Of a DNA stretch of 64,000 nucleotides, positions 7,771-63,596 are shown piece by piece. The translations under genes were made by a program, and so were the position numbers. The notes beneath the pieces were generated by a model, which saw only the letters and a program-made list of their open reading frames with translations, was not told the DNA's origin and did no database searches. Within the stretch, counting starts at the first letter, position 1; each line of letters begins with the position of its first letter. The stretch comes from Epinephelus fuscoguttatus (taxonomy: Eukaryota; Chordata; Actinopteri; Perciformes; Serranidae): positions 21,465,437 to 21,529,436 of the forward strand of contig NC_064763.1 in the NCBI RefSeq assembly GCF_011397635.1, written 5' to 3'.

Positions 7771-8299
7771 TTGTGAAACACCTGAATTACACTGATGAAC
7801 TGTTATATTGTGGAGTTAAACTAATTATAATCAATTATAATACGTAATAAATTGTTATTTATTTATTTTTTACATATAATTTAGACTTCTGAAGTGGTCC
7901 TATGATCACAATACAAGGAAATACTGCATAGATATACATACTGAAATAATGCTGTTGAGGACATTATGTTGAATAACTGTACAGCCCTTGATAAAAAATT
8001 TCAACGCTGATTAGTTACACCACCATTTACCATCCCAGTCAGCCACAGTAACCTGACCCAGCATCGGCCCAAACTCAAGCTGAGCAAGCTGGAAGAAATA
8101 ATAATAGATTCTTATTCAAAGGCGCCTTTCCTGACACTTAAGGTCACCTTGCGGGCAAAGATAGAGAAGATAACAGCAGATTAAAAAAGTCAAAGACATA
8201 AAGAATAAAGTAACATAAAATAAATAACTGAATAATAAAATAATGATAACATAACAGCAAATAAATATTCATCAAAACAGGTTTACAGTCAATAACATT

Positions 8300-8745
8300 C
8301 TGTGTAAATAGTGAGTCAGACTGATTTGAAAGTGGACAGAGAGTTGATGCTACAAATGTCCGGTGGGAGGGAGTTCCAGAGGCAGGGGGCAGAGCGGCTG
8401 AAGGCTCTAGTCCCCCAGGTGGTCAGGTAGGCTGCTGGGACAGCGAGGTGGATGGAAGAGGAAGACCTGAGGGTGTGAGTGGGGATGTGCAAGAATTGGG
8501 AAAGGTACAGAGGAGCTTGGTTGTGAATGGAATTAAAAGTAAGGAGGAGAAGATCTTGAAGTCAATGCATTGTTTAACTGGGAGCCAGTAAAGCTGCTGA
8601 GGAACAGGAGCGATGTGATTGGTGGAGGGGATTCTGGTGATGATGCCAGCGGCAGAGCTCCGGACCAGCTGAAGTTTGTGGATGGACTTCAGAGGAGGAC
8701 CAAAAAGGAGCGACTTACAGTAATCAATACAGGATGTAAAAAAGA
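8300..8745 (-). mobile_element. L2/CR1-type LINE fragment, C-terminal end of reverse transcriptase ORF
   Basis: Minus-strand frames contain IDYCKSLLFG, KLQLVRSSAAGIIT, LYWLPVKQCIDFKI and, after a frameshift, LPPASGTPSHR-like sequence. This is the order found at the end of CR1/L2-type reverse transcriptase ORFs (..NAAARLL..HWLPV..RIDFKI..LWNSLP). It is broken and cannot code for an enzyme. Confidence 0.75.
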
Positions 8746-8799
8746 CAGGCTGCCTTCAATTGCCCATCTCGACTGAAACTTGGGATAAATTATGTCCCA

Positions 8800-9560
8800 G
8801 AATCAGGACAAATAAGCTGACCCGATTCTGGCTGCCAACCCTGCCATTATTGAATTATCAAAACATGACCTGGCCTAGCATTGGCCCAAACTCTGCATGC
8901 AAGAAGAAATAAGTAAGGCCACGTCCAGCTGCCCGACACAGCTGAGACAAGGGTTGAATGACGCCCCATAGTCGGGCCAAATAATCTGGGCCGACTCTGT
9001 ATGTCGGAAGATACAAGTCTGGCCCTTCCCGATTACTCCACTTGGCTGAGACTTCGGATGCATGACGTTCCAGAATCGGGACAAATAAGCTGGTCCGATT
9101 CTGGCTGCCGACACTGCCATTACTGGGCTGTTATCAGACCATGACCTGGCCCAAAATCTGCATGCCGGAAGAAATAAGAAAAGTCAGGTCGTGCCCGATT
9201 ACTCAACTCGGCTGAGACACAGGATGAATGACGCCACAGAATCGGGCCAAATAAGCTGGCCCGATTCCAGCTGTCGACCCTGCCATTACTGGACTGTTAT
9301 CAAAGCATCACCTGGCCCACCATCCGCTCAAACTCTGCATGCTGGAAGAAGTCAGGTCACGCACGATTACATGAATGATGCCCCAGAATCGGGCCAACAC
9401 TGTCATCACTGGGCCATTATAAAAAAAATAATTAAAAAAATAAGTCTCACAGATGATAATAGATAAAAATAAATAAGAAGGCCTTGCCCAGCATTGGCCC
9501 TAACTTGGCACGCCATTAGAAATAAACTGGCCCGATTTAAGCTGCAGACACCATCATCAC
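8800..9560. repeat. Degenerate tandem repeat, unit about 165-172 bp
   Basis: The phrase AATAAGCTGGCCCGATTCTGG or close variants recurs at about 8812, 8984, 9086 and 9251. Between them are the recurring phrases CTGCATGCCGGAAGAAATAAG, GCCCGATTACTC and GACGCCCCAGAATCGGGCC. Spacings of about 172, 102 and 165 bp suggest a unit of about 165-172 bp with one shortened copy. No coding capacity was seen. Confidence 0.75.
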
Positions 9561-42819: not shown

Positions 42820-45800
42820 TTATTTAGCTGCTGGAGCTGCGCCTTCAGCAGCAGCGCCTTCCTCCACCTGGTTCGTAAGCAGGAGGAACTTCAACACAGG
42901 TCCGATGTACTCCATGACGGTGTCTTTCACTGATTTCTCCAGCAAGTACCCTTCTGTCTCAATCTCTGTGTTTTCATTCCCTGCCACTGCATCCATGGCG
43001 GTCTGCAGGAAGCGCAAGCTCACCAGCACAGAGCCCTGGGATGAAGGAAGGGGGGAGATAATGAGGGGAGCGGGTTAAATGTAGGGCAGATGTAAGTGGT
43101 GATTGATAGAAATTGCATTAATTGTGCACATGAGACTCTGTAAATGAATGAGGAATCATGTGATGTTCACTTTCAATCAGAGTCAAGATGCTCATAAAAG
43201 AAATCTTTAAATTATTCAGCAGAAAAAAATGCATCTAGCCTTGTGTATGCTGCTTACATTTTATACAAAATGGTGAGTTGCTGCAGCAGAATTTTTCCTG
43301 CATGTGTAAAGACATAACACAATGTGAAAGTGTGCTTTTATACAGCCTTGGCAGCTCTACCACTCACTGTTACACCTCCAAATTAAAAATGAATCTCTGC
43401 CTGAAATCACAGTCCCTGTAAACCTCCTCATAATATACCTGTAAGAGGAAGACTGACAGTACTCCAGCCCCAATGGTGTTCATCAGGCCCATGTAGTAGT
43501 TGACCAGGGCCTCTCTGCAGCCTCGGAGGTAGATGTTGAGCTCCTCGGTTTGGTAATCATAGTTATAGTGAGCTGAGTTGTTGGTGAGCTGATACTGGAT
43601 GCATGGCCGTGGAGAGCTGGGGTTGCAGCAACTGAATGGGACTCCATCTACCAAGTAACGGCCATCCACGTTGCTCTTGATGCGGCTAAGAAAACAAGAG
43701 AAAGGTATGATTACATATACGTTCCTGTAATGGGATGGGAAACCCACCGCCCAATTATGTATCATACTGTCCGCAACTTACTCTTTCACTTCCTTAGTGC
43801 TGAAGTCAAGGTAGCGGTTACTGATCCACTGGACCTCAAACCAGTCCCTGAAGTCATTGTTTCCACAACACTGAAACTCCATCTGCAGGCGATCGATGTT
43901 CTGTTTCTGGAAGCAGCGGCCTGGGGTGTCAGTGTCCTTGTAGAAGCGGATGCCGTTCCTCAGGCCGGCCTTCAGAGAAGACTCCAGACTGCCCTTCATT
44001 GCATAGCTCATGATGACAGCCAGCAGCATGAGGACGGTGAAGAAACAAGAGACAGCAAAATAGGGCTTCAACATGCTCTTCCAGCGGGGAAATCGACCGG
44101 CATCCAGAGCATCCTGACAGATCTTTGACGCAAAGTAGTTGATACCCAACGAGGCCAGACCAACGATCATGAGGGTGTTGGGCACAACGTGTATGTCCGA
44201 GTTATCCATTACCTGGAAGCAAGTCACACAATAATGTCATTATTATTTGTTTGCTGGAAGGAAACAAGGGAAACATGCATCAGAACATATCTGGTAAAAA
44301 CCTGGAAAGTATGTCTTAACGTCAATATACAAACACCCACTAATAAGCAAATATATTTCAGTTATTAAAGGTCCAGTGTGTAGGATTTAAAGGGATATAT
44401 TGGCAGAAATAGAAAGTGAACAACAAGTATGTTTTTGATTAGTGTTTAATCACCTGAAAATATACATTGTTGTGTTTTTATTACCTTGGAATGAGCCATT
44501 CACATTATGTTGTTCGTGGTCATGTATAATTAACCTCACCTGTGTACATTTTTTGTGATATTGCCAGAATACACGCTTAAGAAGGGCATCTTGCCCGATA
44601 CATCCATGTGGCAATATTCAAAATTCAAACTGGAGTGTTGTCCCGATCTTGTCTACGGAGATTACCACGTTTCTAAAGTAGCCCAGAAAAGACAAACCAA
44701 ATGCTTGCTCTAGATAGGGACATTCTTATTTTTGCCTTGGCCACCGTAGTTAGCAGCCCCTCAGTGATGAGCACCTCAGAAAAATATTGATTTATTTAAT
44801 TTGAAACTGCTTTATTCAGTGTTTACTGGTTTTAATCACCTGGTCCGTTTGTTCTGGAGAGAAAGAGACCTCTGCGGATTATGTGGCTCCAGGTAAAAAC
44901 TTCCTGAATGTCTGGATCAGAGGCACGCATTCAGTTATTAGAGACAATAGGTGAGGACACATTAGCAGGTGCTAGGCTAGCGGCCCATCTCTGACATGCC
45001 AAATTGCATCGGAGAAACACTGATTTGTAACATGAAACTTTTATTCTGTGTTTTTACCGGTTTAAATCACCTAGCACATTTGTTTTGGAGAGGAAGAGAA
45101 CAATAAACACTGAAGGGATTCTAACCAGGAGAAGTCTCAGTGGGCTGCAATCTGCTATCCTCACCACTAGATGCCACCAAATCACCCCAAATCATTCACA
45201 CTGTTCCTTTAAACAGCTTATTCTCATACTGAAACTACATGATTCTGGTAATGAGTAAATATCCAAACCTGGCTGCAGCTATAGATGTATAGGTGTAAAT
45301 TATAGATGCACTGTGCCCCATTTTATTATATTTAACAAATTCAGTCTGACTTTACAATCTTGAATCAAAAGTTTAAGTTTCTTTGGGTTTGTCCAACTTG
45401 ATCAGATGACATTTGTTGAAGAACCCTCACAGGTTCAAAAGAGTTCAACCCTTATTTATAAAGGGGAGGACTCCTAAAAAGCATGCGTACTAATTTTCAT
45501 CTGCAGCATGACAGTCAGCCACAAATATGAATGATTAAGAGCCTCTCAGTTAATCAGAGTTTAATGAGCGTTGAGCAGCTCACCCCAAGCAGCTGAGGCT
45601 CAGCTGTGTTGCTCAAGGGCACCTACAGTGCACGAACTGTAGCTGCACATGTCATTCAGTTGCTCAGTCCAGATTTTACTTTACTTCAAACTCACACTGT
45701 TCAAAAAGTGCATGAACTGAAACACATGTCCCTTGTGAAATGTGGTATTGCCAAGTAAGGCTGTAGAGTTTCATGCTCTGTATTGTGTGCAAAAGTCTTT

Positions 45801-47054
45801 TAAGTCTTCTAAATTCCACTGGTTTTTGCAGAAAAACTTGACACAAGCCACATGTCTGAAACTTATTGTACGAAGTGACCTCTCAAGTGGTTGATTTTAG
45901 TTAAATGGAGCTATGAAAGGCCACTTTTAAGAAGAAAATAGACTGCATTTTGTTGGATGGAGGACACCCACATTGAGTCTGGTTGGCCTATAGATATAAA
46001 TCATTTTCATCAAATCACATTTTTCTAAGTCTAAGTCTCATCAATTCTGTAATTTATTTATTCACTTATGGTGTGTGTCTTTCATTTCCTTTTTTCCAAA
46101 ATATATACATGTCCATTTACACTTTTCACAGTCATGCAAACAGAATATTGTCATAACCTCAGCTGTCAAAGGATGAAACAACCCAAACAGGTCAAACAAA
46201 ATTCTGTATTTTGGTACATTTAAAAATATTCAAAATCATGTTGATAACACAATAATAGCTGTTTCACCATAGTTGTGCAAACATGATCTTTTTGAGGCTG
46301 CAGCTATTTAAATGTGGGAATAAAATACATCCAAATAAAACTACATAGGTTTGTTTTCAATGCAAAGTTGTGATGATGGCCTTCAGATGAAGGGATTACG
46401 GTGATTAAGACTGACAGAGCCTGGTTTATCAAATGATGAGTCAGGATTCAAAGTGGGTCACAGGTGTATTTACCTGCTGCTGGTCTCCAACAAGGACATT
46501 TTGTATCAGAATCACCTTTTATTCATCTTTTCAAGACCCATTTTTATGTTTTCTCCCAAAATGACGACAGTTTAAAAGTAAGACAGACGGCTGAACTTAA
46601 GTGTGTAATCAGCTGTATCACCTTACAACTTCCAAAAATGCTCTTCCTCAGTCCACTGGACTGAATCATGATTGGCAGTTTATGTTTTACCTGTTTTCTC
46701 TGTCACGAAAGACCACTAGGTGAACTGATTTTCTTCTCAGTATGACCACAGTTAAACTATTCACACCACTATGTAGTTACACTGAGAAACATAATTACAT
46801 GTCACTCACTCTTGCAGTTATATTGTAAAGTATTACACTATTAATTGTAATCTGTTGGTAACTTGCAGGTTAAAAAAAAGAGTCAGAAACAAAGTCTGGA
46901 ATACCTCTGCCCTCCTGCGGAGCTCCGTCTTGAGGATGCAGCCCAGGGTGAAGGTGATAGCCCCGGCCACTGTGGCACACCAGGAGAGGAGCCACAGTCC
47001 CTGGGCTAGCTTCACCCTTTTCTGAAAGGGGAACTTCATCTTCATCACCACCAT
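42820..47054 (-). CDS. rom1: Peripherin/ROM1-family tetraspanin of photoreceptor discs, probably rom1
   Basis: These tetraspanins form the rim scaffold of rod and cone outer-segment discs. Four exons: 47054-46905, 44212-43782, 43685-43439, 43035-42820, joined in frame to 347 aa (human ROM1 351, PRPH2 346). The sequence has four membrane spans and a large second lumenal loop with [20 protein letters not shown] and GCRE (the conserved loop cysteines). It also has TDTPGRC, the single extra cysteine used for disulfide-linked oligomers, and an NNS glycosylation site in [19 protein letters not shown] near the start and the human 11q synteny favour rom1; human PRPH2 has MNW there. Much of the loop and the C-terminal NQVEEGA are as close or closer to PRPH2, so the paralog call is less certain than the family. 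ATG 47054 gives the same N-terminal length as peripherin. Expression is expected in photoreceptors. Confidence 0.85.
44365..45213 (+). mobile_element. Short inverted-repeat element, family A, long copy
   Basis: The left end TTAAAGGTCCAGTGTGTAGG and the inverse of the right end TTTAAAGGAACAGTGTGAAT match imperfectly. Inside, a block with TTATTCAGTGTTTACTGGTTTTAATCACCTGG and GTTCTGGAGAGAAAGAGA (about 44810-44870) recurs at about 45035-45100, an internal duplication about 230 bp apart. It is non-coding and lies in intron 1 of rom1. Confidence 0.7.
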
Positions 47055-50869: not shown

Positions 50870-53800
50870 TCACAGCTGTGTTCGCTCCCCTTTCAACAAC
50901 TCATCTGGAATCCCTCCTGTCCAGCTGTGCACCTCAGCCCTGCCCTGACCCTGTCCTTCAGCAGGCTGCGCTCCACACATGAAGTGGTTGAACATCCGCT
51001 CAGCTGACTGCAGGCCAGTCAGGCTGCTATCTGCCTCTGACGTCCTGCTCAGCCTCACAATAGCTGCATCCCTGTCATTGCTCGTTCTCCAGTGATGAAT
51101 GATCTCATTATCTAAATCCCCAGTAGCTTCGCCCCCTTGGTGGTGGAGGTCCATCATGGCCTCTGTACCTCTTAGCTCCTTCTGCATGTGATGGCGAGCC
51201 AGAGGGATTTCCTCCAGGCTGGCTGACCGGATCAGGATGGCAGAGCCATGATTTGGACTTGTGGAGATCCTGAAAGTGTCCTCACCTGCCGTGCCGTCAG
51301 ACAGATTCTCATTGTGCATGGTGAATTGGAGATGAGGTATTTGCAGTGGGCGGGGATAGTGTCCTCTGAGGATCTCCTCACCCCCTGACTCACTGTCTTT
51401 GTCATCTGCTTCCCGGTGTCTCCACACTGGAACTCTGTTTGATCCTGTCAGTATAAATCGTGGGGTCTCGTCTCCCAGCTCGGACCAGTCAGACTCCTCC
51501 TCCTCTGGGACTGACCCCAGAGGTTGCTCCTGCCCACCTGCTTTGGCCTTCTCATAGATATGATTGTCCATGAACTCAGCCGGAGGGGGGGCGATGGGAG
51601 GAACCACCTGATTCATGGCATCATCTGTCTGAAAATGGAGCTCAGTTTTGTGTAGCACTGATGTTACCTACAGTAAGTAGAGGTTAGTAAGGGATCAGTT
51701 TATTTATCAAATGATGCAAAGACAAAGAATAAACAGGTTTGTGTAAAAATAAATATAAACATAGTAATGCTGAATTCTGCATGTGCAATAAACAAGTTTA
51801 CAGGGGCTTATCAATATTACATTTTTATGTTTTTGTCCGTTTATTTTTTGCCAGTGTTTGTCATTGTTGGGGTGCCCTTTTCTGGTTTTCCTCTTCTGCC
51901 TCTGAATGGAATGGAAGGTAAAGATCTTACATTGAATGTTTCCACACTGTTGGCGTATTTTGCATCAGCAAGCTGCTTCGTCAGTGCCGAAATACGTCGG
52001 TTCAACCTCTCACGTTCTCCTTCCATACTCTGAGCCTGTCACAAGAAAGCACAGGGACCATAGTGTCACAGGTAAACTTTCAGTAAGTGGGGGAGTTTTA
52101 ATAACTTTTACTGCTCAGTCAACGTTAATAATTCAGTAGCAGAAGGCTCCGACATGTCACAAAATTTCTAATAATTCAGGCTCAATCACAAGAAACAAAA
52201 AAATGCTCCCAATCTCACCACTGAGTGAAGCCTTTGCTCTAGAAGACTATTAGTCTGCTGTGTGGTGGAGCAGTTGTCGTGTAATCTGAAATGAGGCCCC
52301 AAATGAGAGAGAGAAGTTACTCAACAATAATACAATATACAGTACAGGCCAAAAGTTTGGACACACCTTCTCATTCAATGCGTTTTCTTTATTTTCATGT
52401 AGATTCTCACTGAAGGCATCAAAACTATGAATGAACACATGTGGAGTTATGTACTTAACAAAAAAAGGTGAAATAACTGAAAACATGTTTTATATTCTAG
52501 TTTCTTCAAAATAGCCACCCTTTGCTCTGATTACTGCTTTGCACACTCTTGGCATTCTCTCCATGAGCTTCAAGAGGTAGTCACCTGAAATGGTTTCCAC
52601 TTCACAGGTGTGCCTTATCAGGGTTAATTAGTGGAATTTCTTGCTTTATCAATGGGGTTGGGACCATCGGTTGTGTTGTGCAGAAGTCAGGTTAATACAC
52701 AGCCGACAGCCCTATTGGACAACTGTTAAAATTCATATTATGGCAAGAACCAATCAGCTAACTAAAGAAAAATGAGTGGCCATCATTACTTTAAGAAATG
52801 AAGGTCAGTCAGCCCGGAAAATTGCAAAAACTTTAAATGTGTCCCCAAGTGGAGTCGCAAAAACCATCAAGCGCTACAACGAAACTGGCACACATGAGGA
52901 CCCACCCAGGAAAGGAAGACCAAGAGTCACCTCTGCTTCTGAGGATAAGTTCATCCGAGTCACCAGCCTCAGAAATCGCAAGTTAACAGCAGCTCAGATC
53001 AGAGACCAGATGAATGCCACACAGAGTTCTAGCAGCAGACCCATCTCTAGAACAACTGTTAAGAGGAGACTGCGCGAAACAGGCCTTCATGGTCAAATAG
53101 CTGCTAGGAAACCACTGCTAAGGAGAGGCAACAAGCAGAAGAGATTTGTTTGGGCCAAGAAACACAAGGAATGGACATCAGACCAGTGGAAATCTGTGCT
53201 TTGGTCTGATGAGTCCAGATTTGAGATCTTTGGTTCCAACCAGCGTGTCTTTGTGAGATGCAGAAAAGGTGAACGGATGGATTCCACATGCCTGGTTCCC
53301 ACTGTGAAGCATGGAGGAGGAGGTGTGATGGTGTGGGGATGTTTTGCTGGTGACACTGTTGGGGATTTATTCAAAATTGAAGGCACACTGAACCAGCATG
53401 GCTACCACAGCATCCTGCAGCGACATGCCATCCCATCCGGTTTGCGTTTAGTTGGACGATCATTTATTTTTCAACAGGACAATGACCCCAAACACACCTC
53501 CAGGCTGTGTAAGGGCTATTTGACCAAGAAGGAGAGTGATGGAGTGCTGCAGCAGATGACCTGGCCTCCACAGTCACCGGACCTGAACCCAATCGAGATG
53601 GTTTGGGGTGAGCTGGACCGCAGAGTGAAGGCAAAGGGGGCAACAAGTGCTAAACACCTGTGGGAACTCCTTCAAGACTGTTGGAAAACCATTTCAGGTG
53701 ACTACCTCTTGAAGCTCATGGAGAGAATGCCAAGAGTGTGCAAAGTAGTAATCAGAGCAAAGGGTGGCTATTTTGAAGAAACTAGAATATAAAACATGTT

Positions 53801-56800
53801 TTCAGTTATTTCACCTTTTTTTGTTAAGTACATAACTCCACATGTGTTCATTCATAGTTCTGATGCCTTCAGTGAGAATATACAATGTAAATAGTCATGA
53901 AAATAAAGAAAACGCATTGAATGAGAAGGTGTGTCCAAACTTTTGGCCTGTACTGTATTTTAGTATACATGCACATTGTATGAGGCAGTAATATAGCTAG
54001 GCATTATTTGCAGGTGTCATCTTAGGTCCGAAACACAAGACAGAGTAAAAACAGAGGTGAAATCTCATTTCAAAGCATATTTCTAAGGAAAACAAATCAG
54101 GGCAAATTTAGCCTTGTTCATATTGAATAGCTTGATATACCCAGGTACAACAACAATACATCACAGTTAAATGTATTTTATTCAATTTCTTTCACATCCA
54201 CAAGTAGCCATTATGTTACACATCCCTAGTAATTGTACATTAAAAAAGGACTTCATCAGAGCCCAACTTTATGATTTTGGTTACATGATTGAGAAACAAG
54301 TTGATTCAGCAGCCTAATTAAGTAATAATCTTTAAAATTTGTATTTAAATAAATGTCTGTGAAGTCAAGATCTATTGCCAAATGAGATAACACACTGGTT
54401 ATTAAGCCTATGACCCACTGACGAAAGCCTTTCATTTGCACTATTACGAACTGGATGTCTGTGGCAACAATCTCGGGAGAGATAAGGCAGAGCTAGCGCA
54501 ACAGAGTCACTGTTCATCTGTTTTTTTCCAATCTCTGCTAGCGTTGTGTTGTTTGGAAGTGAGATCCAAAAACACACCTGCATTTACCACTAACACCCAT
54601 AGGTGCCATCAAAGAGAACAAATCAGATATCTTTGGAATTGTAACTTTTTAACATGTGTAACACCAAAACTGTCTATTAAAGAGCACAAGCTAATAGAAC
54701 TCGGTTTTAGGAGGGGAAATGTGGATTCCGTCGTGGCCATGGATCTGTGGACAAGCTCTTTACCCTTGCAGGGCTGTTGCAGGGGTCTTGGGAGTTTGCC
54801 CATCCAGTTAACATGTGTTTTGTGGACTTGGAGAAAACTTACGACCACATCCCTCAGGGAGTCCTGTGGAGGGTACTGAGCCCTCCGATCCTTGTATGAC
54901 CAAAGTGAGAGCTGAGTCCACATGCTTGGCATAAAGTCAAACACATTTTAGGTGGGTGTTGACCTCCACCAGGGTTGTCTCTTGTCTTCTGTTTGTGATA
55001 TTCATGGACAGGATTTCAAGGTGCAGACAGGGGGAAGAAGGGGTCTGGTTTGGTGACCTCAGAATTGCATCTCTGCTTTTTGCAGATGATGTGGTTCTAT
55101 TGGCTTCATCACACTGTGACCTCCAGCATGCACTGGGGGGTTTGCAGCTGAGTGTGAAGCAGTCGGGTTGAGAGCAACTCCAAATCTGAGGCCATGGTTC
55201 TTTGCCAGAAAATGGTGGACTGTCTCCTCTGGGTTGAGAGAGAGTTGTTGTCACAAGCACAGGACTTCATGTATCTTAGGGTCTTGTTCACGTGTGAGGG
55301 TAAAATGAAATGTGGTTTGTGGGGTGTCAGAGGTAACGTGGGCACTGCGCCAGACCGTCGAGGTAAAAAGGGAGCTGAGCCACAAGGCAAAGCTTTCAAT
55401 TTACCAGCCCATCTTCATCCCAACCCTCACCTATAATCATGACCTTTGGGTGGTAACCGAAAGAATGAGATTGCAGATACAAGCAGCTGAAATGAGTTTC
55501 CTCCATAGGGTGGCTGGGCTCAGCTTTAGAGATAAGGTTAAGAGCTCAGACATCCAGAGGAAGTGCAGAGTAGAGCCGCTCTTCCTTCAGATCAAAAGGG
55601 GCCAGTCGAGGTGGTTTGGGCATATGATAAGAACGTGTCATGGGCGCCTCCCGTTAGAGGCGTTTCGGGCATGTCCAACTGGTGGGAGGCCCCAGGGTAG
55701 ACCCAGAACATGCTGGAGGGAACATATCTATTCTAGGTCTGGGAAGGGATTTGCGGATAAAATGGCCAAGTTAATGAAACATAAGAAGGAATTTGATGTA
55801 ATCTTTTTCTGTCTGCTGTTTCATTTTCTGAGTCAAGTAGTTTGCCCACAACTTTTGCACATGGTCTGGAAAAATAACGGATTTGCTCCGAATGACGTAA
55901 ATCTTCAAAGAAAATAAATTGAGAAGACAAAAACAAAGGTCTATCCATGCATTCTTTACCTCCCAAACCTCTCTGTGAGGCTGCTAAGCTCCATACGTGT
56001 CCTCTGAAGCTCTGCCTCCAGAAGCTTTTGACTGCTCATGAATTCCTCTCCTAAACACTCCATCCTCACTGCTGTCTTCAGCAAAGTTTGATGCAGACCT
56101 TCATTCTGCTCCTGTAGTACCCTGTCAGGTGGATACACAAAATAAGAGATATAAAATGGAGTAAGACTTGAGCGTTGTATGAATTCCTTTCATTGATCTC
56201 TTTACTATTATATTACACATTGGTTGTTAAATTGCAAACGTCAGTGTTTTCTGTGATATTCACATACAAAATAATTTGAGCGTGCAATAAACATGGATAA
56301 TGTCATGTTCATGGTTGCCACTTGAACTATGATTATTAAAAATCCAAAAGGAATTATGTCATACTTACATGATCCTACCTAGTTCATGTGGCTTTTCCTA
56401 TGTGAAAGAAAAATGACATTCAGAAATACCATTACAGAAGGCCAAAGAATAAAGTGAAAAAAAGCTGGAAAATGGAAAAGAATAAAGACAATGGAAAAGT
56501 CAATTAAATTACCATTAGTCTGAGCAATCCATTGTCCTGTAATAACTAATCTAGTGTCCACTGTGACATAGACACTGCTGCCCAAATCAATAGACAAGCA
56601 AATGAGTGGAACACTATTACATAACCAGTTAATCAAGCATGTGTAACGTGGGCTGCTATTGACTTGCCAATAATTACTTCATGGCACGCTGTAATAGAGG
56701 ATTTCATAAATGAGTATAGGACTTAACACCAAGAGAAATGTCATACTTTATCTGATGAAGGGCCAATAAAGCTTGTCTGTTCCTCATCCTGGCTGGAGGG

Positions 56801-59800
56801 GCTGCTAGTGTTCCTGGAAGAATTTGCCTTGCTAGAAAGAGACTCCAACTTCTTGGGTAAAGGGGGACTGCCAGCATGGTGGCCGTCGTGGCCAAGATTA
56901 TTGTTTTTGGTGTGGGGCTGGTTGTGATGTGAATCTCCATGTTGATGGCTTGGACTGTGGTGGTCACCATGGTGGTGCTGATGGCTCGGACTGTGGTGGT
57001 CACCATGATGGTGCTGATGGCTTGGACTGTGGTGGTCACCATGATGGTGCTGATGGCCTGGACTGTGGTGGTCACCATGATGGTGCTGATGGCTCGGACT
57101 GTGGTGGTCACCATGGTGGTGCTGATGGCCTGGACTGTGGTGGTCATCATGGTGGTGCTGATGGCCTGGACTATGGTGGTCACCATGGTGGTGCTGATGG
57201 CCTGGACTATGGTGGTCTCCATGATGGTGCTGATGGCCTGGACTGTGGTGGTCATCATGGTGGTGCTGATGGCCTGGACTATGGTGATGCTGATGGCCTG
57301 GACTATGGTGGTCTCCATGTTGATGCTGATGGCCTGGACTGTGGTGGTCATCATGGTGGTGCTGATGGCCTGGACTGTGGTGGTCATCATGGTGGTGCTG
57401 ATGGCCTGAACCATGGTGTTTTTCATGTTGATGTTGATGGCCTGGACTGTGGTGATCTCCATGGTGGTGCTGATGGTCTGTACTGTGGTGGTCTCTATGT
57501 TGATGTTCATGGTCTGAACTATTGTGGTCTCCATGGTGATGCTGATGGTCTGAACTGTGGTGGCCATCCTGGTGGTGCTGATGGCCTGGACTGTGGTGGT
57601 CTCCATGGTGATGGTGATGCGATTCACCATGGTGGTCTCCATGGTGGTGCTGGTGCTGATGGCCTTGACTGTGGTGGTCATCATGGTGGTGCTGATGGCT
57701 TGGACTATGGTGGTCTCCATGGTGATGGTGATGGGATTCACTGTGGTGTTCATCATGATGGTGCTGATGGCCTGAACTGTGATGTTCTCCATGTTGATGG
57801 TGATGCAATTCACTGTGGTGGTCTCCATGGTGATGCTGCTGAGATTCATTGTGTTTGTTTCCATAGTGATGGTGATGGCCTGGACTTTGGTGATGGTGTC
57901 TATGATGATGATGATGATGAGGTTCACTGTGGTGGTCTCTATGATGATGATGATGATGATGATGATGAGGTTCACTGCGGTGGTCACCATGGTGATGATA
58001 AATTGTGTCACTGATTAGGCTCTGGCGTCCATGGTGATGTGGAGTAGTTGGGCGTTCAATGGTTGGGTGGTCGCTATGGCGGCGGTGACCTGAACTGTGA
58101 TGTTCTTCATAGTAATGTGTTGGAGTGTGGTGACCTTTACGAGGAGTTGTGATGTGGTGGTCTTCATGGTGACGATGACGAGAGGGGCTATGATGGCTGC
58201 CATGGTGACGGTGGTCTCCATGATGATGGTCTCCATGGTAATTGTGATAGGATGTGTCTTTGTGGTCTCTGTGGTGATGAGACTTGTTGTGGTGGTCACC
58301 ATGATGATAGAGAGGACTGTGGTGGTGTCCGTGGTGATGGTGATGACTTGTGTTGTGATGGTCTCTGTGATGATGGTTATAACATGGGCTGTTGCAATCA
58401 CCATGGTGATGATGATGACTAGAAGCGTGATCGTCTCCTTGGTGACGATGGTGGTTGTGCTCGTAAGAGGGCGAATGGGAGCGATGCTGAGAGGCTTGAG
58501 ACCATGACTGACTTCTTTTCAAACAACGAACATTGGTGCAGCTTCTGTGACCCGTGCGATGGGGTGAGCCTGTAGAACGGTGACGTTGACGCTGGTGAGA
58601 AGATTTAGAGTGAGAAGGCTGAGAAGAGTCCTTGCTGGTATGAGAGTACTTGCTGGAGCAAACTGATTCTGCAGTGTCGTGCCGACTCCTCGGCTGACTG
58701 TGTTTCTCAGTGCTGCTGTCTCCCTTACTGGATCGAACAGAGGCTTGCCCTGGACTGCAGGGTCTTTGAGCATCTGTAACCCCAAGAGTGGTGAGTCTCA
58801 TGGGGCTGAGCACCTGCCGAGTGATCTCATTAAGGAAGGCAGAGAACTTCATTTTCTCCTTCATTAAATTCTTCTTGGCTTCACTTTTTCTCCTCTCCTG
58901 TTCATTTTCATCTTCATTTTCATGCCAGTCTTTTTCTTTGGGTCCAGTGAGAGCCTCCATTGATTTGCTTTTGCGGACACTTCCATCATTTCCTGAGCCT
59001 CTTGTAGCCCGGTTCTTGGTTCCCTTGGTGGGGCCGCTGTGAGAGGACTTGCCTTTCTCCTGTTTCTGTTTAGCAGAGAGCCTGTTTTGATAACCTCTTT
59101 TATCTATCAAAGGGACCGTGTCGTCTTCCTCCTCAAAGTGCTTATGTTTCCCGGAAATGTCAGTACAGGACTGCGAATGCTGAGCCTTCTTAAGAGGATG
59201 TCTATCTGAACAGTCACTGCTGGAGTTTGAGGACAGGCTAGATGAAGATGTTGAAGAGGAGGAAGAAAATGAAGATGAGGAGGAGGAGGAAGAGGAAGAA
59301 GAGGGGGAGGAGGACGAGGAGGAGGAGAAGGATACTGATGAGGATGAAGTAGAATGAGAAGAAGAGGAGGATGAAGAGGAAGCAGTTGAGGAACTCGAAG
59401 GAGCTTCTGAGAGAGAAACATGGCGATGGTTTTGTTTGCGGTGGTAATGGCGAGAGTGAGGATGATGAGTCTTGTCTTCATCATGCTGATGCTGATGGCC
59501 GGAGGGAAGATCACTGAAAAGGCTGTCGTCCGCTGTGGAATGGGTGCTATTTCAGAAAGAAAATAAAATTATTATAGACACACTGGAAACCAATATAAGA
59601 CTGAGACAAGCTAATGATAATGATAATTATTTTTTGTAATAACGGAGCAAATTTATGAATCAAAACTCTCATAACAAACGAACACAGAAGGACACAGATC
59701 TCTGCCACCTTCATCATTATCATATGAAAATTAAAATAAAAAGAGAAGCACATATTCTATACATGAGGACAGGCAAGAAACAGTAGATAAGAAATCCATA

Positions 59801-61278
59801 ATTACTCATGGCTGTCATTATCATCTGACTGATGTGACTTTTGCCAATGACGATGGCCTTGATTCTGGTGATGGTGCTTCATCTGTGGAATTTTTGAGTT
59901 TGCATTCTTTCCATGCTTGCGGTCTTTCTCTTGATGGTCACACATTTCAGGTTTATGACCTTTGACGCCTTTGGTGTCCTGATGAGTACGTAAAGGTCTG
60001 AAATATTTCTCCATCAACTGGCACGATATCAATCCCTGGGGAAAAGTTGCATAATTCAGTCTGTGGTGACAATTATTTTCCTATCCACTTTACAGAAATA
60101 GACACATGGTAATATTTGAATTTTAATTCATACTATTATTGCAGTAAAGTAGGAAAAGATAATGATTACAAAATGTATGATCGATAGATACTAATACAGT
60201 ACTACTTCATAAAACTATCAACCCAATCACCAGAATGAATGTTGGTATTATGTTTCTGCAAACCATGGATACGTTACGCTTATACGTTATTATGGGGCAG
60301 ATACGTTACAACTTTCCATTTCAACAACATTGTGGTTCACATAAAACCACTTAGTTATGGTTAGGATAAGATTTTGGCTTAAAATACTTTTGGTGGCACT
60401 ATCCCAGCAGGAAACACAGCGATGTCTCCATAAAACACAACCATTTTTTGCTGCACCATCGTAAAAGGAAATGCAGTGCTATCTCTGTTAAGAAATAAAA
60501 GCTTTTGATGGCACTATCCCGACTAGAAATGCATCAATGTCATGATAAAAAACAACCGCTTTTTGGGAACTATTGCAGCAGGAAAAGCAGCAATGACTCG
60601 GTTAAAAGACAAAAAAAATCATGGCACTATCCCCTTTGGAAACACAGCCATTGATCGCTGAAAAACACCCACGTTTGGGTGATAAAATGCTGCTGGAAGA
60701 CTCACTGAAGTCACTGTTAATCTCAAACAGTTGTCTCACCATCACTAAGCGTCACATCATCCCCTCCATTATCCAATGACAAGGTCAGCTCATATGCTAC
60801 GTCACTTTAGAAACATTGATATGATACATATGAAATGTACAAAAGTAACATATCTGTGGTTCGCAGAAACCAACATTGCCTTCTGGTGACTGGGTTGAAA
60901 ACTATACTGGCTTACTACAGAGGTAATATGACTGATCATCAGGTGTATGCACATCATTTCTAAACTGTACGGAAGTATTAATAAAAAATAAATCTATTTT
61001 TGAAACATATGTAGTGCTACATGCAATGTAAAGGCAAATGTAAAAAAGTCAAATGCAGACTTCTCTGTGTAAAATTAATCCTTGTGTTATGAGTTGCATG
61101 CAACGCTATGAAAAGCAAGCTCATTGTAATTGAGAAAGCAGCTACAGAGAAGTTAATTCAGAAATAATCTACCATGCAGCCAGCACCTGTACTTACGTCC
61201 TCAAAGAAGCCACAGAATGACACAGGCAGTGTTGAGTGAAACACTGACTTTCTCCCAATGATCCACCGTCCAGTTGAA
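50870..61278 (-). CDS. Large Ser/His-rich protein with BEGAIN/TJAP1-like coiled coil
   Basis: I cannot name this gene. Exons: 61278-61197 (possibly untranslated), 60035-59806, 59546-56747, 56397-56369, 56121-55960, 52285-52219, 52035-51931, 51667-50870. All phases match. From ATG 60014 the protein is 1389 aa. The frame is also open upstream through both 5' exons, so the true start may lie further up or off the window. Layout: His-rich N terminus; poly-Ser tract (about 121-176); basic region with KSMEAL and FLNEITRQVLSPMRLTTLGV; His-rich 12-residue repeats (about 438-937); coiled coil (about 1014-1124); acidic tail with SDWSELGDETPRFI; C-terminal RTQL, a possible class I PDZ ligand. From LQEQNEGLHQTL to TKQLADAK the coiled coil aligns without gaps to the region of BEGAIN and TJAP1 (from memory), both scaffolds at junctions or synapses. 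No signal peptide or membrane span was seen. A Tc1 element and a LINE piece occupy one intron. Confidence 0.75.
52340..53955 (+). mobile_element. Near-intact Tc1/mariner transposon with very long terminal repeats
   Basis: A 1616-bp element flanked by a TA target duplication (52338-52339 and 53956-53957). It begins CAGTACAGGCCAAAAGTTTG and ends with the exact inverse. The inverted arms run about 257 bp (52340-52596) and 270 bp (53686-53955). They are nearly identical except for a gap of about 14 bases in the left arm near 52400. The right arm includes the last 35 or so codons of the transposase. It is inserted in the intron between host exons 55960 and 52285. Confidence 0.95.
52740..53792 (+). 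pseudogene. Tc1 transposase with one early stop codon
   Basis: ATG at 52740 starts MARTNQLTKEK and hits TGA at 52773-52775 (codon 12). From codon 13 the frame is open to the TAA at 53790-53792, 350 codons in all apart from that stop. Beyond it are a paired helix-turn-helix DNA-binding part (QSARKIAKTLNVSPSGVAKTI; ISRTTVKRRLRETG) and the DD34E core: WSDESRFE, FQQDNDPKHTS and SPDLNPIEMVWGELDRR. From memory of the family the residue at codon 12 is Arg (CGA), so the change looks like CpG decay. The next open triplet, GTG at 52776, is not a credible start. Confidence 0.9.
54700..55745 (+). mobile_element. Broken non-LTR retrotransposon, reverse transcriptase end
   Basis: Plus-strand pieces in several frames, in correct order: VDLEKTYDHIPQGVLWRVL, VIFMDRISRCRQGEEGVWFG, ASLLFADDVVLLASS (the catalytic FADD box), KAKLSIYQPIFIPTLTYNHDLW, RIQAAEMSFLHRVAGLSFRD, RWFGHMIRTCHGRLPLEAFRA, GRPRTCW. 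The order matches RTE-like LINEs with a C-terminal extension. The 5' part is missing and frameshifts and stops are frequent. It sits in the same host intron as the Tc1 element but in a separate insertion. Confidence 0.75.
56369..56397 (-). other. 29-bp coding microexon of the His-rich gene
   Basis: Acceptor TTTCTTTCACATAG precedes 56397, and donor GTAAGTATG follows 56369. The exon codes EKPHELGRI plus two bases of ATG. It takes a phase-0 input from the long exon (donor AAA|GTATGA at 56747/56746) and gives a phase-2 output. That exactly fits the next exon, which starts with a lone G before GTACTACAG. Without it the two neighbours are out of frame with each other. Confidence 0.75.
56945..58440 (-). 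repeat. Coding tandem repeat, 36-bp unit, His-rich
   Basis: In the left part (56945-57420) the unit is almost regular at 36 bp and codes 12 residues of the type HSPGHQHHHGDH. To the right (57420-58440) units become longer, shorter and more diverged (for example GESHHHHHGDHH, SSDHQHHHGDHN). Because the unit length is a multiple of three and lacks stop triplets, other frames are open too, including a 361-codon plus-strand frame (56929-58014) that is an artefact. The regular left end suggests recent expansion. Confidence 0.9.
59225..59400 (-). repeat. Poly-Ser coding tract (GA-rich on the plus strand)
   Basis: A purine-rich plus strand (GAGGAGGAGGA type) codes on the minus strand for about 55 residues that are mostly Ser, ending SLSSNSSSD. 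The frame continues both ways without a stop into DCSDRHPLKKAQHSQ and from HRHVSLSEAP, so it belongs to the long exon. A Pro/Leu-rich frame in the same place is out of frame with both neighbours. Confidence 0.8.
60218..60898. mobile_element. Inverted-repeat element carrying an internal minisatellite
   Basis: The left end TCAACCCAATCACCAGAA and the inverse of the right end TCAACCCAGTCACCAGAA match. The similarity continues inward for about 50 bp (ATGTTGGT..TTTCTGC.AACCA..GATA.GTTAC). Inside, TGGCACTATCCC-like units followed by GGAAA(C/T)(A/G)CAGC and ATAAAA recur about five times between 60385 and 60690, with a period of about 60 bp. It is 681 bp, non-coding, and upstream of host exon 60035. 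Confidence 0.7.
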
Positions 61279-61909: not shown

Positions 61910-63430
61910 ATATCTTACCAGGTAAGTCCCGTAGAGATCAACGATCTCTTTTACAAGGGAGACTTGGCCAAGACAGCAGCACACAAAAAGTTACAGCCAA
62001 ATAACTACACGATAAAAAACATAAAAGATGTACAGTAACCAGAAATATTAGAACACCTATGCACAATGACAAGAACCAATCTATCCATTCAACCTTGTAC
62101 TTATGAGAGCTTTACAGTCAGGCAGAGAAACCAAATCATGTAATTCCAACTCTTTTTGAAGGTTATTCCAAGTGAAGGGAGCAAAGCACATAGAAGCCTT
62201 GATATTTTAGACTGTAGTTTTGGTCAGATTTCTGTTTAATCAAAGTACAAATGTACGAAGGGAGTTCACCCAACATGGCTTTATAAATGAACAAAAACCA
62301 GTGACTGAGCCTACTACAGGTCAAAGATGGCCAACCAGCCCTGGAATAAAGCGTACAGTGATGAGTGAGGGCTTTACAATTTTCAACAAGTCTCAGTGCA
62401 CTATGATATGTAGTATCTAACATGTACAAACAATGTGCAGATGCATTCATGTACATCAAATCACCATAATCTAGAAACAGTAAAAATGTAGCGGCAACCA
62501 GTCTTTTTCTAACCTCAAAGGAGAGGCAGGACTTGACGACCTCTAACTTCTTTCCCTGAGCAACATGTGGAGTGTTCACTGGCTACTTTTTAGCATTTGA
62601 GAAATGCATAACCTTAGTTTTATTAACAGTTAAAACCATCTTCAGTTGTGAAAGCTGAATCTGGATAAGATTTAAAGGAGCTATATGTAAGAAATCTAAA
62701 GCAAATAGTCGTAAAATCATCCTAATATGTCACAGAGACTAAGGAATAATGTTCATATAACATACTGATCTCACCGACAACAATAGTACAGCCAGAATAT
62801 TCGCATTTAAAATTTTTTATGGTCCGCAGATCATGTTTACGTTTTGAATTTGTGTTTTGGCCTGTTGCGCCACCCACCGCCGTCTACCAGTCACGCAGTC
62901 AGTAGAGTCTCTGCATCAGTTAAAGTTACGACTGAGCTACAGCAGCATGGCAAGCAGCATTAGCAGTGTCCTGGTACATAGCATTAGCAGTCTCCTCCGC
63001 TGTATCCCGGCAGCAGCGTTAGCAGCAGAAAAGCCGGACTGGCTCGAACGGTCCACTGGAAAACCGAAGATCAAGGACGCGGCGACGCAGCGACGCAGCG
63101 ACGTGGCCCTGCCACGGCAGCTGCCTGTGGGCAAACAGATCAGTCTCCAGCGTGCCGCTGCCCAGCAACCTCGAATCTGTAGGGGAGGGGGGGCGGACAC
63201 GACTCGCGGCAGTATTTTTAATTTCAGTGCAGTAACCGTTTTGGCCACATTCTTACATACAGCGCCTTCAAGACAGCTTGCAATTTGGCCAGACCCTCTG
63301 TGTTAGATAAGTATATCACTGTGTCGTCGGCATAAAAATGAAAATTGGCACCAACCACATTTTGACCAAGACTATTAATATATATTGAAAATAGCAGCGT
63401 ACCTAACACAGAGCCCTGGGGTAAACCTCC
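61910..63430 (-). mobile_element. LINE (L2/CR1-type) relic, interrupted by a MITE
   Basis: On the minus strand, [15 protein letters not shown] and [14 protein letters not shown] (the YADD catalytic box) lie at 63409-63290. The frame continues as [10 protein letters not shown], is broken by the insert at 62674-63268, and resumes at about 62670 with IQLSQLKMVLTVNKTKVMHFSNAK, then KLEVVKSCLSFEVRKRLVAATFLLFLDYGDLMY and ALRLVENCK..LYSRAGWPSL. The left end, TTACCAGGTAAGTCCCGTAG, is the 3' part. Frameshifts and a stop make it inactive. Confidence 0.8.
62674..63268. mobile_element. MITE nested inside the LINE
   Basis: The left end AAGGAGCTATATGTAAGAA and the inverse of the right end AAGGCGCTGTATGTAAGAA differ at two bases in 19. 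The element is about 595 bp. It has an A/T-rich left third and a CpG-rich right half (62860-63235) with repeated GCAGCGACG-type triplets. Open frames within it are compositional. A target duplication was not established. Confidence 0.7.
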
Positions 63431-63596
63431 CTGTATTCACATGTGCTTGTTACTCATACTTCTGTTCTTTTTTAACTTTCTTTTAATGGCTTTTTGAATG
63501 TCTTGAAAGACTTGAAAGTGATAATAAGCCAAATATTTTAATATATTTATTTTAGGATTTTGTTTAATAAACCACTCAAACTGCCAAAAGTGAATG

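Follow-up and report, generated by a model that had tools for sequence, protein, structure and literature searches.

A putative third branch of the TJAP1/BEGAIN scaffold family with a histidine array in Epinephelus fuscoguttatus

The stretch of 64,000 nucleotides analyzed here (the window, C12:21465437-21529436; the one genome covered has 1.047 Gb and 26 contigs) carries on its minus strand a gene that very probably represents a third branch of the TJAP1/BEGAIN scaffolds; this high confidence applies to the identity and the architecture as read from the sequence. The branch is apparently undescribed. With it, a small scaffold family gains a third branch, which has two copies in this genome, the window gene and a gene on C9.

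One frame runs through seven coding exons of the minus strand (60035-50870) and gives 4170 nt, that is, 1389 aa and a stop codon, reproducing the protein that had originally been predicted. All introns have GT/AG ends. Exon 2 (59806..60035) contains the start codon (ATG 60014), encodes the N-terminus MEKYFRPL and ends in phase 2; it is placed by the joined frame and by homology with the C9 copy, and the start codon was assigned because of this homology. The long exon (56747..59546, 2800 nt) encodes a poly-Ser tract, the sequence RKSKSMEAL, a FLNEIT motif and the histidine array, and has related exons in C9 and tjap1. A micro-exon of 29 nt follows (56369..56397, phase 0 to 2, EKPHELGRI(M)), which was placed by the joined frame and a splice search. 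The three coiled-coil exons (55960..56121, phase 2 to 2; 52219..52285, 67 nt, phase 2 to 0; and 51931..52035, phase 0 to 0) were placed by the joined frame and by the phases in the relatives. The last exon (50870..51667), in the joined frame, encodes an acidic tail of 265 aa ending in ERTQL. A candidate non-coding exon 1, already proposed in the original prediction, lies on the same strand at 61197..61278, with the donor GAC|GTAAGT.

The splice sites were ranked with an approximate splice matrix among 524 GTs and 699 AGs. The donor of the candidate exon 1 ranked 13/524. The donor after exon 2 was weak (110/524), that after the long exon was moderate (39/524), and the acceptor at 52285 was weak (125/699). 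These weakly or moderately scoring joins are supported by the homologies seen in the relatives. When the 2800-nt exon was skipped, the frame was broken. Furthermore, the first 1050 nt of this exon, ahead of the His-rich region, have 349 codons without a stop in one sense frame, and none of 5000 mononucleotide shuffles was as open in any of the three frames. At the level of sequence, the window gene is thereby confirmed as real and as one predicted gene.

The intron that follows coil exon 1 contains a Tc1-like DNA transposon (52334-53961). It has inverted arms (91% over 79 nt and 98% over 199 nt) and, on the plus strand, a transposase frame (52776-53792) that matches Pfam HTH_Tnp_Tc3_2 and DDE_3. 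Judged by eye, the open frame is preceded by a stop codon, and the copy looks inactive. Reverse-transcriptase-like LINE fragments were also seen by eye at 54700-55900 and 63224-63436.

Approximate sequences of human TJAP1 and BEGAIN were used for comparison. The approximate TJAP1 matched Pfam Pilt (E 6.8e-76), and its residues 9-22 agreed with the peptide printed in the accessible part of PMC10820826. The C-terminus of the approximate BEGAIN agreed with the mouse peptide printed in the excerpt of PMC5066261. Without gaps, the coil of the window protein aligned over 107 positions with 40 identities to TJAP1 and 38 to BEGAIN. It scored 172 with TJAP1 and 160 with BEGAIN, whereas the best of 20,000 heptad-preserving shuffles for each reached 59 and 63; the gap-free alignment expected from the start was thus borne out. 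Over 115 aa, the coil shared 37% identity with the approximate human TJAP1. A BLASTP comparison of the coil with the approximate BEGAIN alone (E 0.009, a poor gapped alignment) was set aside, the ungapped score and the tree being much stronger. A profile search of the coil against the two families had also been proposed: the homology to TJAP1/BEGAIN stood, while the Pfam search with coil and tail gave nothing over the cut-off. The PDB sequence search with the coil gave Sec71 as the best match (E 0.16), and the prokaryote and viral collections contained no relatives, as expected for a vertebrate gene.

The genome was searched with the approximate human TJAP1. A tjap1 gene was detected on C16, with further pieces on C11 and C14; since the latter two loci match the approximate BEGAIN best, they were taken as two begain genes. 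At least five genes of the family are therefore present: the window gene, the C9 gene, tjap1 on C16, and begain on C11 and C14. With boundaries picked by eye at AG/GT, the coil exons have the phases 2/2, 2/0 and 0/0 in all five. They measure 162, 67 and 108 nt in turn; the exceptions are coil exon 3 of the window gene (105 nt) and coil exon 1 of the C9 gene (129 nt), which shows an 11-residue gap. The C9 gene has a poor donor (gtttgg) behind its first coil exon, which makes its splicing less certain.

Coil identity was 45% between the window and C9 genes, 30-37% between the window gene and the TJAP1/BEGAIN rows, and 26-34% between C9 and those rows. In the IQ-TREE tree, window and C9 grouped together (100/99), as did the three BEGAIN rows (100/100); the two TJAP1 rows were unresolved, and C9 formed a long branch. 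An exon encoding DCNLA.QLL.C follows the coil in tjap1 and in both begain genes, and no match to it was obtained between the coil and the last exon of either the window gene or the C9 gene. Because this exon is absent from both, they were filed as a third branch and not as TJAP1 or BEGAIN. The proposal of a third branch is upheld by the tree and by the coil exon phases shared by the five genes.

The C9 copy came up as a 547-codon frame (E 0.077) when the tjap1 version of the N-terminal block was the query. This search, read up to E 5, gave three places: C16 itself, the long exon of the window gene (E 4.8e-4) and C9. A protein comparison of the whole long exons of the window and C9 genes yielded no significant match. 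By blastp with masking off, the middle part of the window protein matched the C9 frame with E 4.9e-13 over 76 residues. The C9 frame is followed downstream by coil exons, the first of which is 48% identical to that of the window gene (E 8e-8 in the retrieved stretches). Upstream, a C9 exon begins with MEKFFKP, where the window gene has MEKYFRP. Among 583,388 six-frame residues, which comprise the window and the retrieved C9, C11, C14 and C16 stretches, only these two places fit MEK[YF]F[RK]P. The C9 start exon ends in phase 2, 113 nt from the ATG, and the acceptor before GTACACAATG continues the frame (join made by eye). Exon 2 of C9 has a run of 6 His.

The window protein consists, in order, of a His-rich N-terminus, a Ser tract, a basic middle part of 245 residues, a His region, a short linker, the coil and an acidic tail. 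The poly-Ser tract (aa 110-185; 59201..59428, minus strand) has 76 residues and is 70% Ser. The His-rich region (aa 431-970; 56846..58465, minus strand) has 239 His in 540 residues, and the whole protein has 298 His. The coiled coil covers about aa 1011-1124, and the tail (aa 1125-1389) has a balance of K+R minus D+E of -22. By composition, all four parts that had been described from the first reading (the His-rich region, the poly-Ser tract, the coil of about 110 residues and the acidic tail) were recovered.

The hydropathy scan of the whole protein from ATG 60014 gave a highest 19-residue mean of 0.41 and no hydrophobic segment, a verdict to which an N-terminus extended from exon 1 could add. 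Thus, a cytosolic or nuclear scaffold is likeliest; the signal peptide or membrane segment of secreted or luminal His-rich proteins such as HRG and HRC does not appear in the predicted protein. A single bipartite NLS-like stretch is present in the window protein and is not kept in C9.

The tail did not match Pfam PF15453 Pilt. It was not clearly similar to the C9 tail (best E about 0.3), and nothing in the retrieved tjap1, begain and C9 stretches matched it up to E 0.5. When the isolated tail was modelled with AlphaFold2 as a single sequence, the mean pLDDT was 32.7, too low to be informative. The search for an RKDSL-type GK-binding site returned two loose RxxS[LMFY] matches only. The last residues of the protein are GERTQL, and a TQL terminus would fit a class I PDZ ligand.

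The original prediction held that this branch had gained its N-terminal part, and here it has to be corrected. The block KFSxFL[DN]E[IV]T was found in the window gene, in C9, in tjap1 and upstream of begain on C11. In the window gene, VRKSKSMEAL (aa 260-269; 58949..58978, minus strand) has counterparts in C9 (IRKAKSMEVL) and tjap1 (IRKSKSVELL), and is followed by the FL[DN]E[IV]T motif (aa 298-325; 58781..58864, minus strand; MKEKMKFSAFLNEITRQVLSPMRLTTLG). On C16, the TJAP1 N-terminus opens a 492-codon frame, which residues 260-336 of the window protein match (E 6e-8 in 109 kb); this long tjap1 frame carries, besides IRKSKSVELL, FSNFLDEITYQVLSP. Upstream of begain on C11, a 349-codon frame (C11:23070225-23071274) holds KVKFSQFLDEVTSNVLDPNSLQVFG with the FLDEVT motif (E 0.001 with the window block and 1.6e-5 with the tjap1 block). 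Among the 583,388 residues, FLDE[IV]T or FLNEIT was met four times in all, once for each of these four genes; the stretch searched upstream of the C14 begain contained no such motif.

A four-row alignment of the block has 13 invariant columns. With these 4 rows, AlphaFold2 predicted one long helix over aa 277-316 of the window protein, which the motif overlaps (mean pLDDT 66.4, near 90 mid-helix). No match to this helix was obtained in the approximate human TJAP1 or BEGAIN, in Pfam or in the PDB sequences. The Pfam search of the long exon gave nothing at all to E 1, and that of the long tjap1 frame gave no match to E 5. The long exon as a new acquisition of the third branch is not supported, given its relatives in C9 and tjap1 and the core present in the C11 frame. 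As far as tested, the idea of a gain would be right for the His array only and wrong for the exon.

The array itself (56927..57820, minus strand) is composed mostly of 12-residue units with the consensus HHSPGHQHHHGD (36 nt). Tandem Repeats Finder gave 26.6 units of 36 nt, and a loose unit pattern had 26 matches in the protein. The same program reported no tandem repeat over the C9 long exon or over the begain C11 frame, and in tjap1 only other, short Pro/His- and CTC-rich repeats, partly beyond the long donor. Thus, of the genes compared, only the window gene seems to have the 12-residue His array. The gene structure, the branch, the shared N-terminal block and this copy-specific array are apparent in the sequence. 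The effect of the array is read much less surely than identity and architecture. The three alternatives weighed next concern the array only and not the identity of the gene.

It is quite possible, though short of probable, that the array is a near-neutral product of slippage or unequal exchange in a tolerant exon, with no added function. This would explain the tandem 36-nt structure, its absence from the C9 long exon and the other low-complexity tracts close by. It is opposed by a frame that stays open throughout and by the pattern of substitutions. In 22 of the 26 units (those at aa 608, loose; aa 816, short; aa 694, of 14 residues; and aa 932, at the edge, were left out), third positions account for 47 of the 86 departures from the consensus (column shuffle p 0.023). 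The N/S ratio of the coding frame, 0.42, is the lowest of the six frames (0.68 to 4.34 in the others), and His is retained at six columns in 18-22 of the 22 units. These results are modest evidence of a coding constraint on the array, the tandem copies not being independent.

Targeting of the protein to nuclear speckles, as known for runs of six or more His, is a possibility that we regard as somewhat unlikely. The window protein has runs of 9 and 6 His, within the polyHis-speckle range of at least 6, and the run of 6 in exon 2 of C9 would be a further one. According to the accessible part of PMC2644819, GFP is sent to speckles clearly by a tract of 9 His and weakly by one of 6; many genes with His repeats are duplicates from early vertebrates, and their paralogues mostly have no repeat, so that the repeat is commonly found in one of several duplicates. 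However, the known relatives are located at the Golgi, at junctions or at the synapse, other domains can override a His tract (same source, as accessible), and the NLS-like stretch is not conserved in C9.

The binding of Zn or Cu, or the sensing of pH, in the cytosol, as first proposed for the array, appears improbable: the 239 His in 540 residues and the conserved His columns fit this idea, but His density is the sole pointer to metal, and the C9 sister has no array.

Our best guess is instead an altered localization or assembly, because His tracts target speckles and were gained by single duplicates in the cases described in PMC2644819, as far as accessible. The product of the window gene would be a soluble, dimeric coiled-coil scaffold, most likely cytosolic, in which the coil would pair two molecules, as the predicted dimerization of TJAP1 suggests. 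The N-terminal FL[DN]E[IV]T helix, which would have been inherited with the family, probably docks a partner, and the tail, acidic and with TQL at its end, may be a ligand of a PDZ protein. Between the docking helix and the coil, the His-rich stretch is probably disordered; it would have expanded in the window copy when the 36-nt unit was multiplied by tandem duplication. The His region would then most likely alter where, or how densely, the scaffold assembles (localization or condensation). The sister pair, with and without the array, is a natural test of the effect of a His tract on a scaffold.

In the available part of PMC10820826, TJAP1 is described as having an unstructured N-terminus, a coil predicted by AlphaFold2 to form a homodimer, and a disordered tail. 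It binds ARF6 and Dlg-2/PSD93 in yeast two-hybrid assays and sits at the Golgi and at tight junctions, and its precise function is called essentially unknown there; a cis-Golgi role was reported in 2026 (PMC13305319, seen in part). Since the N-terminus is called unstructured and the function essentially unknown, the predicted helix offers a handle for finding partners. The window gene resembles the tjap1 of this genome in its coil exon phases and its 29-nt micro-exon candidate, but differs from TJAP1 in having the His array and in lacking the N-terminal Mint-binding peptide KPYRKAPPEHRELR (by a loose pattern, the peptide being that of the accessible text of PMC10820826), the DCNL exon and a Pilt match in Pfam. 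It resembles BEGAIN in the coil (38/107 identical to the approximate human protein), in the exon phases of both begain genes and in FSQFLDEVTSNVLDP, found in the frame upstream of begain on C11; unlike BEGAIN, it lacks the SRKDSLTKAQLYGTLLN end (peptide from the excerpt of PMC5066261), and the DCNL exon was not found. It differs from both families in ending with GERTQL and lacking the C-terminal RKDSLT.AQ..G.LLN. A further trait of TJAP1 and BEGAIN is that they bind MAGUK proteins (PSD-95, PSD-93). As in FAM76B, DYRK1A and POU4F2 (PMC2644819, as accessible), a His tract is carried by one of several vertebrate paralogues; in contrast to these, the window gene has a long array of 12-residue units and not a short run.

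No described protein with such a layout was met in the open-licence literature, in agreement with the first reading. The names tjap1-like and begain-like and four variants were not in use there, six forms of the FL[DN]E[IV]T motif were looked for in print and none was met, and the two papers that mention both BEGAIN and TJAP1 were, judged by title, not about the family.

The joins of the long exon to the coil (59546-56747 to 56397 to 56121) had been given in the original prediction. With the approximate splice matrix, small exons of 14-119 nt in phase 0 to 2 were sought between the long exon and the coil. One candidate each was obtained in the window gene, where the interval was only 610 nt, in C9 and in tjap1. 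All three are 29 nt long and encode EKPHELGRI, DTLCDADHL and EVLSDSDRI, respectively. At this place, the approximate human TJAP1 reads EPLTDAERM. The identical search on all strands of the C9, C11, C14 and C16 stretches (455 kb) gave 27 candidates, of which 2 were 29 nt long; because the thresholds were identical, these two are those of C9 and C16. The predicted micro-exon, found at the same place in C9 and tjap1, is the main, indirect support for the join and agrees with the predicted one. For begain, the best C11 candidate was 38 nt long (VPDEDMNNIDTI, at C11:23075388, between the 349-codon frame and the coil), and on C14 no convincing candidate was detected. Two separate genes, a His-rich one that stops at the TGA immediately past 56747 and another for the coiled coil, would suit the unspliced frame, which stops one codon past the donor, and the donor rank of 39/524, but are very unlikely given the 29-nt micro-exon predicted at the matching place in C9 and tjap1 and the lack of AATAAA or ATTAAA on the gene strand between 60127 and 54182.

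The long N-terminal frame of tjap1 lies at 8028-9410 of the C16 stretch. By eye, it has two plausible donors, CAG|GTAAAC after DINQ and AAG|GTAAGT after LLSHIK. Short and long TJAP1 forms may thus exist in this genome, and the long form may be missing from annotations. A broader reading would combine an overlooked ancestral layout (a long exon with the docking helix, a micro-exon and a dimeric coil, with short or long TJAP1 made by donor choice) with a His array of the third branch that gates condensation by pH or metal; we consider this whole combination doubtful.

Downstream of the window gene, in the same orientation, lies a photoreceptor-type tetraspanin gene of the PRPH2/ROM1 kind (42865..47054, minus strand), recognized by Pfam Tetraspanin and by tblastn with approximate PRPH2 and ROM1 sequences. 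Both third-branch genes are followed by such a gene, at 3.8 kb in the window and at about 13.9 kb on C9. The C9 tetraspanin exons are 75, 85 and 55% identical to those of the window and 58, 74 and 38% identical to the approximate PRPH2. In the window, tblastn with approximate human protein sequences placed tetraspanin, FRMD8, VPS51 and probably TM7SF2 on the same strand; FRMD8, VPS51 and TM7SF2 had no match in the 59 kb of C9 searched.

On the human map, FRMD8, VPS51 and TM7SF2 are at 11q13 and ROM1 at 11q12, TJAP1 is near PRPH2 at 6p21, and BEGAIN is at 14q32. No tetraspanin match was obtained around tjap1 (about 50 kb) or the two begain genes (about 69 kb each), and the linkage expected from the human map is therefore unseen there. 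The literature search returned no printed account of a human 6p21/11q13/14q32 paralogon. The map pattern would fit an origin as a third ohnologue in the early vertebrate duplications, the two copies here deriving from the teleost duplication, and we infer that the third branch probably arose in those early genome duplications. Beside the C9 locus, frames at C9:20458240-20462823 look, by eye, like a CCDC88/HOOK-type N-terminal domain.
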